Of a stretch of DNA of 64,000 bases, positions 2,421-60,509 are shown piece by piece. The stretch comes from Fibrobacter sp. UWB2 (lineage in GTDB: Bacteria; Fibrobacterota; Fibrobacteria; Fibrobacterales; Fibrobacteraceae). Both the position numbers and the translations under genes were made by a program. Position 1 is the first letter of the stretch. Each line of letters starts with the position of its first letter. The stretch covers positions 124,001 through 188,000 of the forward strand of contig NZ_MWQK01000002.1 in assembly GCF_002210425.1 (NCBI RefSeq), given 5' to 3'. The notes below the pieces were generated by a model. It was not told the origin of the DNA. It did no database searches and saw only the letters and a list, made by a program, of their open reading frames with translations.

Positions 2421-2425
2421 GATTT

Positions 2426-2585
2426 GTCATTCCACTTCGTGGCTTGACTTGTTCGCCTCGGATATAGAAACGTGCAAGCATGTTTCTGCATCGCTCGGCT
2501 CCTTGTCATTCCCCTAACGGGGCTTGACAGCTGCGGCTCGGCAATAAGAATGAGTATACTCATTCTTGCTGCACTCGCCTTGCGT
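2426..2585 (+). repeat. Two tandem units of a palindromic repeat with variable 22-nt cores
   Basis: Two units of 79 bp (2426-2504) and 81 bp (2505-2585), each starting GTCATTCC. Each unit has a first small hairpin ending in CTTGAC, then CTCGG plus four bases. Next comes a 22-nt palindrome (2466-2487 and 2546-2567), then GC(A/T)(T/G)C(A/G)CTCG. The palindromes share no sequence: one arm is AGAAAC, the other AAGAATGAGTA. A third copy lies at 12731-12818 on the other strand. Confidence 0.75.
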
Positions 2586-2613
2586 GTCATTCCCGCCTTG
2601 AGCGGGAATCTCC
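2586..2613 (+). repeat. REP-like palindrome, family GTCAT(T/G)CCCGCC
   Basis: GTCATTCCCGC, short loop, GCGGGAATCTCC. Near-identical copies occur at 11387, 29019, 37634 and, reversed, 55588; an interrupted copy lies at 60374. Here it directly follows the two longer repeat units. Confidence 0.8.
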
Positions 2614-5205: not shown

Positions 5206-8200
5206 ATGAACAAGAAAACCATCAAGTTCGGGCTTGCAGTTTCTGCAATGGCTCTCTATTTCGCCGGTTGCGGCGACGACCTGCTGTATTCTCAGGATGT
5301 CAATCAGTTTACTACGGTTTCTTCCTTGAATGACGATGACTGTAGTGAAAAGACCGAAGGCTCCATGGCCTTTGTGAAGTCCAAGGCTACGATGTACGTT
5401 TGCTCTGAAGGCGAATGGGTCGCCATGAACGACCACGAAGCTATCCAGTACCGTTGCGAATCCAAGGAACTGAAGGACAAGTCCGGCATCGCCATTATTT
5501 GCGATGGCAACGATACAATCGGTGTTGTCTACAATGGTAAAGATGGTACAAACGGTACGAACGGTAAGGATGGTGCCGACGGCAAAAACGGTACGAACGG
5601 CACCAATGGCACGAATGGTAAAGATGGTGCCGATGGAACGAATGGAACCAGCGGAACGAACGGATCTAGCGGAACGAATGGTAAGTCTGCTTACGAAATC
5701 GCAAAGGATAACGGTTTCACGGGCACCGAAAAGGAATGGCTTGAATCCCTGAAGGGAGCTGACGGCAAGAACGGCACCAACGGCACCAACGGTAAAGATG
5801 CCGATATGGACGCCATCAACAAGGATATTGATAGCAAGTTCAGCAGCGCCTCTGCCAAGAACCAGAGCGAAATTGACGAAGCTCTCAAGAATTTGAGCTC
5901 TGCCTCTGCCAAGAACCAGAAGGATGTCGATGACGCCCTCAAGAACTTGAGTTCTGCAACGGACAAGTTCGGCGAAGATATCGACAGCAAGTTCAACGAT
6001 GCTTACAGCAGCTGGAATGCAGAACTAGAAGACAAGTCTTGCGCCATCATCGATACGGTTCGTGACAACGAAAAGGCTATCATCACCGTGACCATCAAGT
6101 GCGGCGACGCCGAGACCAAGATGGAAATCCCGTTCACAGTCGTGAACGAGAACCTCGCCAAGGTGTACAAGAAGCATGTTGTCGTGCGTTTCCCGGTGCA
6201 GGCCAACAAGGAAACAAAAACCAATGACATCTACGAAGAAATCTGGAAGAACCTCAAGGGTGGCGACAATGCAGAACTTACCGTGACGGACCTTGACGAA
6301 AAGTTCGCCCCGAGCGGCAAGGTGTTTATGCAGGACTTGTTCGCCTCTGCCAATAAATCCTTTGTGACAATCGAAGAAACTAACGAAAAGGCGGTGGAAT
6401 ACAAGGTTGCACGCCTCGAAGGGGATCTTGACATCACGAACCTTACGACCCCGGTTGTGAAGCTCCGTGTCAAGCTGAACTTGAGTAACAACGCTTTCGG
6501 CGCCTTTGGCGGATTTGGCTCGAACGCAACGGATGTCATTTACAACGCCTATGCAGACTTGTCCGATGCGTCCGACACGGTTGTCATCGACTTCTTGACC
6601 GACTACAAGGCCGCCCGCGTAAAGAAGTTGGTTGACGATGGTAACGGTTTTGGTGTTGCAAACGAGCAGGCAAACAAGGACCTTGCCCACGCCCTTTATT
6701 TGGAAAACAGCGAAGAATATCCGTCTTTCGAACATTATGCCCCCGATCAGATTGGCCTGGCCGAAAACTTCAACAGCATCGTGTGGGTGATGGCCCTCAT
6801 TGACCAAAAGGACAAGACTCCGGGTTTTAACTCGGTCTATAACGCTTTCCGCAATGTCTTTGCCGAAAACGGCAACTTTAACACCGCCGTCAATACGACT
6901 TACGCAGGCAAGGAACACAGCATGTTCTTTGTTGATTACCTCGCTTTGCTTATCGACGCGAACTTCTTCAAGTGGAACCAAATGCAGCATGGCGACTATA
7001 CTGCTGAAACGAATGTCTGGAGTGGTACGGATGCCGTCTATTACAAGATTTTGCAGAATGGATTTGTGGAAGCCTATAAGCTTAAAGTCGAAGACGCAAA
7101 GGTTTTCAATGATCCGTCTGGCTATAGCAGCAAGGTGTATAAGTCTGATGTCGAAGGGGGATATTTCCGTTACTTTGAATATATCGAAAACGAACAAGTT
7201 TGGTATCCTATAACACTTTGGGCTGTAGGTGTTGCAACGGTGGAACAAGTTTGCGATGCTGACGCAGTTTATTCGACCTTCTTCTATAGCTTTGAAGGTC
7301 TTGATGAAAATGCCGTTTGTGTATGCGACAATGGAAAATGCTACTGGCAAGATACTGAAAATGTATGCTTGGGCCGTAATAAAGGAGATAAGGGATCGGC
7401 GTTCTTAGACGGGGAAATTCAAGAGTATGAGTGCGAATGTGATCTATCAGCTTCTTCTACTTGCGATGCTCTTGTGCCTGGTATTCCGAACTCTTCGAGC
7501 TCTGTTGCATCCTCTTCTAGCGCTGCAAGTGGCAAGACTCCAGAAGAACTTGCAAATGATCCGTCTTCTAAGCTTTACCTCGGTGAATGCAGCGCTACAG
7601 TAAACGAAGGCAAAGAAAAGCTGTTCGACACCAAGAATGCGGAACTTGCCACGGCAACGAGCAAAACAACCTTTGTATGCGATGGCTCCAAATGGAGACA
7701 GAAAGATTATCATGACGAGGAATATGGAATATGTTCAAAAACTACGATGGAAAAGGGCGAAGTCAAGGCAGGAAATGGTTCCGCTTGGTACAAATGCGAT
7801 TACCTTGATAAACAGGAAAAATACGAATGGATCGCTACTGATTGGCGTGACTGGGATTTAGATAAAGCTTGCCATTATGGCTATGTCAATGAAAAAGTGG
7901 TTACTGAATCCGGTTATGAATATGTTTGTGAAACAGTAGAGGATTTAGACAACAACGGTAACCATACCCATGAATGGCGTGAAACGACTGCTGATGAATA
8001 TTGCGTGGGTGACCGCGTCAAGGCTACAGTGCAGAAGCTTGAAGACGAAGACCTCGGCGAATCGACCTTCAACGAAAAGTGTAGCTACCACGGTTCTACC
8101 TATGCGAGAAACAATACTGCTAGCGGGGCCAAGAAATGGGTGTACTACGGTAATTTTATCAACGAAAGCACAAGATACAGCGTTTTCTTGTTCTTGAATG

Positions 8201-11379: not shown

Positions 11380-11386
11380 AGCGGTT

Positions 11387-11415
11387 GTCATGCCCGCCAC
11401 CGAGCGGGCATCACC
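11387..11415 (+). repeat. REP-like palindrome
   Basis: GTCATGCCCGCC...GAGCGGGCATCACC, a member of the family first seen at 2586, placed just after the OmpA gene. Confidence 0.75.
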
Positions 11416-11430
11416 CTCTTGAAAATGTGA

Positions 11431-12700: not shown

Positions 12701-12727
12701 GAACCCACGACGAGACCATGTGGGTTC
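12701..12727. repeat. Inverted repeat matching the tRNA T arm
   Basis: GAACCCAC at 12701-12708 and GTGGGTTC at 12720-12727. The left arm extended (GAACCCACGAC) is the exact complement of the T-arm segment GTCGTGGGTTC of the tRNA-Arg 70 bp upstream. Confidence 0.55.
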
Positions 12728-12730
12728 GAC

Positions 12731-12818
12731 CTCTGCGTAAGGCGAGTGCAGCGCCGACAAGCTCGCTTGTCGGCATATCCGAGCCGAAGCCGGAGTGACA
12801 ACGCGAAGCGTTGTCACC
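12731..12818 (-). repeat. Third copy of the variable-core palindromic repeat
   Basis: Read on the minus strand: a 23-nt hairpin (GTGACAACGC arm, 12817-12795), CGGCTTCGGCTCGGATAT, a perfect 22-nt palindrome (12774-12753, arm GCCGACAAGCG), then GCTGCACTCGCCTTACG. The flanks match the unit at 2505-2585; the palindrome does not. Confidence 0.7.
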
Positions 12819-28731: not shown

Positions 28732-29018
28732 TCGTGAATAACGATTAGCCCTACATTGCAGTAACGAAATTCGACCAGGTGCGTTCGAAGTTTTCGAACA
28801 CGCCCTCGAGAAAGAACACACACACACGGGTGCGTGAGTGCGCACCCACCACAACACAAGGGATCACCCGGGTCTCCCTGCCTGGGTGGTCCTTATCGTG
28901 TCCGTTCGGCTCTTGTGCAATACAAGACTCCGACTTCGCCTCACTCTCGCCAACACGGCACGCTTACGCCGTGCCGCTTATGGCTCACGGCGTGTCCGCT
29001 TTGCTTCAAGTCTAATTT
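28732..29018. repeat. Gene-free block of short hairpins after ftsZ
   Basis: No convincing ORF. Contains CTAATCG/CGATTAG at the ftsZ end; GCGTTCGAA facing TTCGAACaCGC; an (AC)n run; GGGTGCG/CGCACCC; GGATCACCC/GGGTGGTCC; CTTGT/ACAAG; and GGCACGC with GCCGTGCC. The stretch CGGCTC...CTCACTCTCGCC resembles the flanks of the variable-core repeats. No clear T-rich terminator. Confidence 0.5.
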
Positions 29019-29046
29019 GTCATGCCCGCCTTGAGCGGGCATCTCC
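29019..29046 (+). repeat. REP-like palindrome
   Basis: GTCATGCCCGCC, loop, GAGCGGGCATCTCC, identical in plan to those at 2586 and 37634. Confidence 0.8.
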
Positions 29047-37606: not shown

Positions 37607-37633
37607 CGGAAATTGCCAAGCTTTAAATACTTT

Positions 37634-37662
37634 GTCATGCCCGCCACTGAGCGGGCATCTCC
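37634..37662 (+). repeat. REP-like palindrome
   Basis: GTCATGCCCGCC, ACTGA, GCGGGCATCTCC, in the gap between trmO and the GH74 gene. Confidence 0.8.
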
Positions 37663-60347: not shown

Positions 60348-60373
60348 TTATTGGGGGCGCCACCTTTTGCTTT

Positions 60374-60456
60374 GTCATTCCCGCCTCCGAGCTCTTTGAT
60401 CACTTAGTGCTTTAGCACTTATGTGAGCATGATCCGCGTATGGGGAGGGAATCTCC
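60374..60456 (+). repeat. REP-like palindrome interrupted by a palindromic insert
   Basis: Starts GTCATTCCCGCCTCC and ends GGAGGGAATCTCC; between lies a 55-base insert whose centre is AGTGCT/AGCACT. Left flank CCGAGCTC recalls the CTCGG side of the variable-core repeats. Confidence 0.6.
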
Positions 60457-60509
60457 TTTGACGTTAACTATAATAATAATTAAATTGGTTATAAGAAAAA
60501 GGACTCGCC

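Follow-up and report, generated by a model that had tools for sequence, protein, structure and literature searches.

Dispersed hairpin repeats of Fibrobacter that appear to be small mobile DNA elements conserved in shape

The window, that is, the whole 64-kb stretch of Fibrobacter DNA analyzed here, contains three copies of a short repeat in which constant flanks frame a palindrome of variable sequence. The best explanation for these repeats, and one that we consider probable, is that they are small mobile DNA elements, members of a dispersed family that is kept for the shape into which its copies fold. The evidence comes from paired substitutions in the stems, from the non-canonical pairs that the fold tolerates, and from comparison of filled and empty orthologous sites.

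Repeat units in the window

The three units lie where the initial annotation had placed them (Table 1), and each consists of a 22-nt palindrome framed by CTCGG plus four bases on one side and GCNNCNCTCG on the other. The window contains 3 matches to this pattern, where 0.29 would be expected, and none of 100 shuffled sequences had as many. Interleaved with units 1 and 2 are TGTCATTCC hairpins that are REPs of the CGTC/dRS3 type. The 5' part of hairpin A2 pairs with the 2444-2448 region to form the outer stem (P1) of unit 1, and the 5' end of hairpin A3 closes that of unit 2. Unit 1 belongs to a recent subfamily with many copies that are about 90% identical; its palindrome is imperfect, with one G.T pair and an AA center. 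In unit 3, the 2-bp stem is broken, with AT facing TG, as would be seen if two units had each contributed one half.

Two stretches that had been listed as related but irregular copies turned out to be something else. At 28900-29000 there are other hairpins in a chain, adjacent to an ftsZ-DE RNA (28828-28896; Rfam match, 97 bits), and 60374-60456 holds a TGTCATTCC..GGGAATCTCC hairpin, a REP of the CGTC/dRS3 type whose loop carries an insert. Further hairpins of this type, with varying stems (TGTCATTCCCGCC.., TGTCATGCCCGCC..), are located at 2585-2613, 11386-11416, 29018-29046, and 37632-37662. The window also contains, at 5534-5809, 9-nt tandem repeats (GGTAAAGATGGTACAAAC..) within an ORF of 1289 aa, where they encode a collagen-like G-x-y run.

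Table 1. Repeat units, associated hairpins and non-members in the window
Feature	Position	Strand	Anatomy or sequence
Hairpin A1, upstream hairpin of unit 1	2424..2448	+	TTGTCATTCCAC-TTC-GTGGCTTGAC; loop reads GAA on the opposite strand
Unit 1 core	2457..2497	+	CTCGG-AT-AT-[22 nt]-GC-AT-C-G-CTCG
Unit 1 palindrome	2466-2487	+	AGAAACGTGCAAGCATGTTTCT
Hairpin A2	2503..2529	+	TTGTCATTCCCC-TAAC-GGGGCTTGACA
Unit 2 core	2537..2577	+	CTCGG-CA-AT-[22 nt]-GC-TG-C-A-CTCG
Unit 2 palindrome	2546-2567	+	AAGAATGAGTATACTCATTCTT; perfect
Hairpin A3	2585..2613	+	TGTC-ATTCCCGC-CTTGA-GCGGGAAT-CTCC
Unit 3, 3' arm of P1 and constant right flank	12724..12737	-	CGCAGAGGTCGAAC (right flank)
Unit 3 core	12743..12783	-	CTCGG-AT-AT-[22 nt]-GC-TG-C-A-CTCG
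Unit 3 palindrome	12753-12774	-	GCCGACAAGCGAGCTTGTCGGC
Unit 3 linker, including 5' arm of P1	12784..12794	-	
Hairpin H1, upstream hairpin of unit 3	12795..12817	-	GTGACAACGC-TTC-GCGTTGTCAC
Non-member, hairpin chain	28901..29010	+	a CGTC-type REP follows at 29018-29046
Non-member, CGTC/dRS3-type hairpin	60373..60459	+	TGTCATTCCCGCC..GGGAATCTCC; second hairpin inside the loop

Copy number and range

The whole-genome pattern search that the initial annotation had proposed was run on the genome from which the window comes (G000; 3.53 Mb in 15 contigs), with the reversed pattern as the control. It produced 50 matches to a loose pattern against 11 for the control, and about 35 real units were left under a strict pattern, which additionally requires the palindrome to be preceded by AT and followed by GC. 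In five congeners, the strict pattern gave 54, 87, 78, 69, and 113 matches (control, 0-2 each), and the loose pattern exceeded the control in most of 36 congeners. Thus, far from being confined to three copies, the family numbers from dozens to more than 100 copies per Fibrobacter genome. In other families of the phylum, loose-pattern matches were not clearly above the control. No published description of such a repeat family in Fibrobacter was found in the open-access literature.

Full palindromes with matching side pairs were also detected outside Fibrobacter, namely, among the matches listed, in other Fibrobacterales, in Saccharibacteria, and in Treponema. Copies are present in at least 4 of the 147 genomes searched in the class of the Saccharibacteria, one of which carries four, and one match sits on a 463-kb contig; among the matches listed, one Treponema genome holds seven. 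Judged by eye, the outer stems of these copies pair as they do in Fibrobacter. We regard the copies in Saccharibacteria and Treponema as true but rare members of the family; the range is a lower bound, and metagenome-assembled genomes may be contaminated. The Saccharibacteria copies (L404, L408-L410, L367) seem to lie within a larger fold, in which the upstream hairpin and the unit, together with a second hairpin (GAACTC-TGC-GAGTTC), would be enclosed by an outer stem GGAGAT/ATCTCC. A single match in Treponema UBA4326, on a 4-kb contig, has the look of Fibrobacter contamination and was set aside. Three matches on viral contigs, along with many matches in Rhizobium, Sphingomonas, Mesorhizobium, and others, were attributed to chance because they contain no palindrome, and spread by viruses was accordingly rejected.

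The frame as a fold

Ungapped alignments were built from 46 units with 22-nt palindromes (A1) and 40 units with 18-nt palindromes (A2). From the outside inward, the frame comprises an upstream hairpin, P1, a 3-bp stem, the CTCGG/CNCTCG joint, two free pairs, the A.C and T.G mismatches, and the palindrome; the joint itself reads C-G, T.C, C.T, G-C, one bulged base, and G-C. The sequence of the stems is highly variable: P1 occurs as AAATGC/GCATTT, AAACAC/GTGTTT, AACTGT/ACAGTT, CCTCTGC/GCAGAGG, and in many other versions, and the 3-bp stem inside it as, for example, GGC/GCC, GAT/ATC, AGG/CCT, or GGA/TCC.

The covariation scores for this structure are 0.518 (A1) and 0.477 (A2), compared with 0.195 and 0.185 for shuffled alignments, and were reached by none of the 500 shuffles; structures slid along the alignment score just 0.06-0.19. 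Among the changes in stems P2 and P3, 308 are two-sided versus 9 one-sided, which strongly supports the earlier suggestion of selection on the hairpin. The 2-bp stem is fully paired in 116 of 134 distinct units (shuffles: mean 32.5, maximum 50). The constraint extends beyond what had been recognized, to P1, the upstream hairpin, and the fixed sites of C.T mismatches. P1 is clear in many units with 18-nt palindromes, where 63% of the cells pair in this register; with 22-nt palindromes it is less regular (44%). Prediction of DNA folding for the complementary strand of unit 2 gives the expected structure (z -4.7), and unit 3 folds better than its shuffles (z -4.1 and -3.6); unit 1 taken alone does no better than shuffles, with z near zero.

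Diversity and turnover of the palindromes

Palindrome statistics were collected from 181 units in three genomes. These include 125 distinct palindromes with 111 distinct 5' halves, which argues against a few fixed sequences modified by point mutations; nevertheless, recent subfamilies (AGAAACATGC, GCCGGTCTGC, and AAAAATGAGC) recur, so that not all the copies are independent. The length of exactly 22 nt that was originally reported holds for the window units and for 90 of the 181 family members; another 72 palindromes are 18 nt long, and lengths of 17, 20, 21, 24, and 25 nt are rare. The center follows RY-NA-RY, with GCAAGC being the most common version (96). Most comparisons between palindrome halves show differences at 3-7 of 8-10 positions, in agreement with the description of the palindromes as unrelated in sequence, although this is slightly overstated given that position 1 is nearly always a purine.

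Stem positions are paired in 92-100% of the distinct palindromes, with the exception of position 2 (and, in the 22-mers, position 6), where the departures are nearly all C.T or T.C and hardly ever C.C or T.T. In an independent sample of 105 units, obtained by a scan of genome contigs, we counted 841 Watson-Crick pairs, 52 C.T, 12 G.T, and 8 A.C; 43 of the 52 C.T mismatches fall on positions 2 or 6.

Comparison of orthologous loci across a panel of species 10-20% apart shows both replacement and persistence of palindromes. At the tRNA locus of unit 3, both flanks and the upstream hairpin are almost letter-for-letter identical between G000 and G026 (H1 itself is identical despite the different core), but the palindromes (22 and 18 nt long, respectively) and the two adjoining pairs differ completely; still other palindromes occupy this locus in G001, G004, G061, and G032. 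Elsewhere, the palindrome stays essentially unchanged over two to four species: at the L026 locus (G000, G001, and G004), at the L100 locus (G000 and G006), and at the locus common to L097, L109, L118, and L122. The idea that some process writes new palindromes into a frame that stays fixed is therefore borne out only insofar as palindromes are swapped between constant flanks at the tRNA locus; against it, in addition to the stable loci, whole 90-bp units, such as units 1 and 2, recur elsewhere at about 90% identity. Copying of palindromes from the local flanking DNA was likewise rejected, the longest words shared with their own flanks (mean 6.62) not exceeding those shared with the flanks of other loci (6.58). 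Exchange of ready-made palindromes between copies, combined with slow paired drift, is a simpler reading and explains all the turnover without a dedicated writing process.

Presence, absence and insertion into genes

Comparison of orthologous sites suggests that the family is mobile-looking. Downstream of gerW, where units 1 and 2 are located, the relatives compared have no unit. At the L100 locus, a single hairpin without a unit is present in G026, and in the filled sites of G000 and G006 the unit lies between two copies of a hairpin-bearing sequence of about 31 bp, so that the hairpin target is repeated (L161 versus L100/L163). The L006 locus is empty in G018 (L148 versus L006); where it is filled, a direct repeat of 14 bp encloses an inverted copy. 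At the same locus, G004, G006, and G026 have further units nested inside the palindrome, and a nested copy is seen in L168. The target duplications, about 14 and about 31 bp at two sites, are few and unequal in length. One palindrome can occur in different outer contexts and one outer context can hold different palindromes, so the modules shuffle.

Several observations concern the surroundings of the units. The unit at L006 (2795 when read on the - strand) abuts a tmRNA gene (Rfam tmRNA, L006:1-204). Short tandem repeats GACGAGA/TCTCGTC often border units in variable intergenic regions (flanks of L018, L172, L195, and L201). A near-identical block of about 160 nt, GCGGGCGGGGCCCCAGCTCGGAGTTGACGCC..ACCTTGGCCGACGC, with one unit inside, is found at many sites in G004 (L202-L213) and in G000 (L001, L023, L091, L095, L101, and L103); it may represent a structured RNA or a mobile element of larger size.

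Two units lie in frame within protein-coding genes, read on the complementary strand: one in FeoB of G061 (L195) and one in RlmL of G001 (L201), both families being confirmed by Pfam. The encoded peptides resemble RESRP---G-DR. The FeoB orthologues of G000, G001, G004, and G026 have no insert, the matches stopping near residue 496 and resuming at about residues 567-595, and the RlmL orthologues either lack the unit stretch or are variable there. Other units within ORFs were rejected as parts of genes, namely those in L172 and L197, which have no Pfam domain, and those in the 105-unit sample, whose frames vary. A repeat of the CGTC type, GTCATCCTGAGC-AGCGAAGGATCCAGT, also lies in frame in FeoB (L234, L235, L238, and L195), where it encodes the peptide RHPEQSEGSSE, and related sequences occur in RlmL (L224-L226); these inserts occupy the same flexible linkers that hold the unit in other species.

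Alternative explanations

Covariation of this kind could be expected also of a structured non-coding or cis-regulatory RNA family, with stems drifting under selection for base pairing; several helices covary strongly, the joints are conserved, one subfamily is the conserved block of about 160 nt in many copies, and a strongly paired RNA tolerating little G.U is formally conceivable. We nevertheless consider such an RNA unlikely. Wobble pairs account for about 11 of the 952 cells in P2 and P3 (about 1%), compared with 38 G.U among 409 pairs (9%) in the tRNAs at the same loci, and the innermost palindrome pair covaries even though it closes a 2-nt loop, which is too tight for RNA. The orientation of units relative to the flanking ORFs shows no bias in either of two samples (++23, --20, +-14, -+14, and ++18, --24, +-16, -+17); with no enrichment between convergent genes either, a terminator or another 3' element was also rejected. 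No unit matched Rfam at the curated threshold, so a known RNA family was rejected as well. Of 46 three-base loops in the upstream hairpins, 31 are TNC and none is GNA, that is, the complementary strand reads GNA, and GNA loops closed by G-C form exceptionally stable DNA mini-hairpins (PMC4686876). Read on that strand, the fixed CTC/CTC joint is tandem G.A, and the C.T mismatches that are tolerated likewise turn into G.A. The paucity of wobble pairs, the random orientation relative to genes, and the GNA loops on one strand therefore favor single-stranded DNA over RNA, and we infer that selection acts on the folding of one DNA strand.

Paired changes could also arise without selection if snap-back copying by template switching perfected quasi-palindromes, the repeats being passive. 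The changes are indeed nearly all two-sided, the inverted copy of the flank at L006 resembles a snap-back product, and the loop of the upstream hairpin at the L026 locus flips between TTC and GAA among species. However, the fixed joint and positions 2 and 6 of the stem retain C.T mismatches that blind correction would erase, the palindromes are no closer to their local flanks than the control, and the copy numbers together with the frame shared across species require spread, not correction alone, so this scenario seems to us improbable. Even less credit is due to a relationship with integrons, in which attC sites are strand-specific folded hairpins with fixed unpaired bases and free stems. Such an imperfect hairpin, cut by a tyrosine recombinase, would by analogy follow the same logic as the conserved extrahelical bases and free stem sequences of alignments A1 and A2; no cassette genes were seen between units, however, and this reading is very doubtful. 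The core sites RYYYAAC/GTTRRRY were not seen in the conserved columns. The units may work like attC by analogy only, and membership is not claimed. Transposition by a Y1 (RAYT/TnpA_REP) transposase, as for the GTAG REPs and REPINs, which are likewise dispersed intergenic hairpins, is the least credible of the alternatives and can be nearly dismissed, notwithstanding the REP-like size, the hairpin form, and the mosaic arrays. Y1_Tnp was not found in a PF01797 search of G000 and is absent from the high-copy genomes G006, G018, and G061, on which ground RAYT transposition was rejected; for G000 it is already largely refuted. The domain is encoded in 12 of 41 congeners, the full-length versions being ordinary open frames of about 150-206 aa. 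Unlike GTAG REPs, the units have a free palindrome, and no GTAG at the hairpin foot appears in the conserved columns of either alignment.

A mobile element kept for its shape

If the family consists of mobile DNA kept for its fold, the complement of the strand presented here would fold, as single-stranded DNA exposed during replication or transfer, into hairpin H1, capped by a GNA loop of three bases, plus a long stem with interruptions. This stem would comprise P1, the 3-bp stem, a joint of tandem G.A (C/GA/G) from which one base bulges, a G plus two free pairs, G.T and C.A, and then P3. The fixed bases at the joints and mismatches would give the fold a recognizable, strand-specific shape; the helices need only to pair, and therefore their sequence can drift by paired changes. 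A nuclease, a recombinase, or a template switch at replication, acting on hairpins, might insert copies beside other hairpins, yielding mosaic arrays with CGTC-type REPs, and recombination within the shared frame might swap palindromes between copies.

A bolder version, which is possible and which we put forward tentatively, is that a class of mobile DNA, present in gut bacteria from three or more phyla (Fibrobacterota, Saccharibacteria, and Spirochaetota), is inherited as a folded strand, with joints and mismatches fixed and helices free, and that an enzyme recognizes the single strand in its folded form and places it next to hairpins and, in frame, within proteins. Bacterial repeats are normally recognized by sequence, so a family conserved mainly in shape would escape ordinary repeat finders. 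The family amounts to hundreds of natural compensatory experiments on the tolerated non-canonical pairs (G.A, not G.U), and it makes testable the notion that DNA hairpins themselves, rather than RNAs, are a unit of selection.

Comparison with known systems

MITEs have terminal inverted repeats shared with a transposase gene and target duplications of fixed length; for the units, the comparison covered two sites, where the duplications measure about 14 and 31 bp. The mitochondrial double-hairpin and repetitive hairpin-forming elements are described as mobile hairpins in intergenic DNA, whereas the units are bacterial and have fixed joints and quantized palindrome lengths; the likeness is a lead only. 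The Rickettsia palindromic elements occur in frame inside unrelated genes and encode a recurring peptide (PMC10969869), a trait shared by the units in FeoB (L195) and RlmL (L201), with orthologues lacking them; by their description, these elements are set apart by sequence and anatomy, and the units are mostly intergenic and reside outside Rickettsia, adding a case, beyond that genus, of palindromic repeats growing into proteins.

The CGTC REP superfamily, which includes dRS3 of Neisseria and RPE-4/RPE-6, is defined by an unpaired CGTC/TGTC tag, an 8-9 bp stem starting with complementary A-T pairs, and a 4-5 nt loop (PMC3733652). The A-type hairpins interleaved with units 1 and 2 resemble this superfamily, and hairpin A3 (2585-2613) conforms to the definition, with its TGTC tag, 8-bp stem beginning with AT, 5-nt loop, and short tail. 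The core of the units does not: AT faces GC, as mismatches, in nearly all units, the G(NN) is base-paired, the loop is 2 nt, two flanking joints take the place of one terminal tag, the palindromes are 18 or 22 nt long, and the outer stem and upstream hairpin are part of the fold. What the units share with the CGTC REPs are short palindromes, heterogeneous stems, the lack of a known dedicated transposase, clustering in mosaics, and some intragenic copies (PMC3733652); the hairpin family comes nearest to the REP superfamilies without a known transposase.
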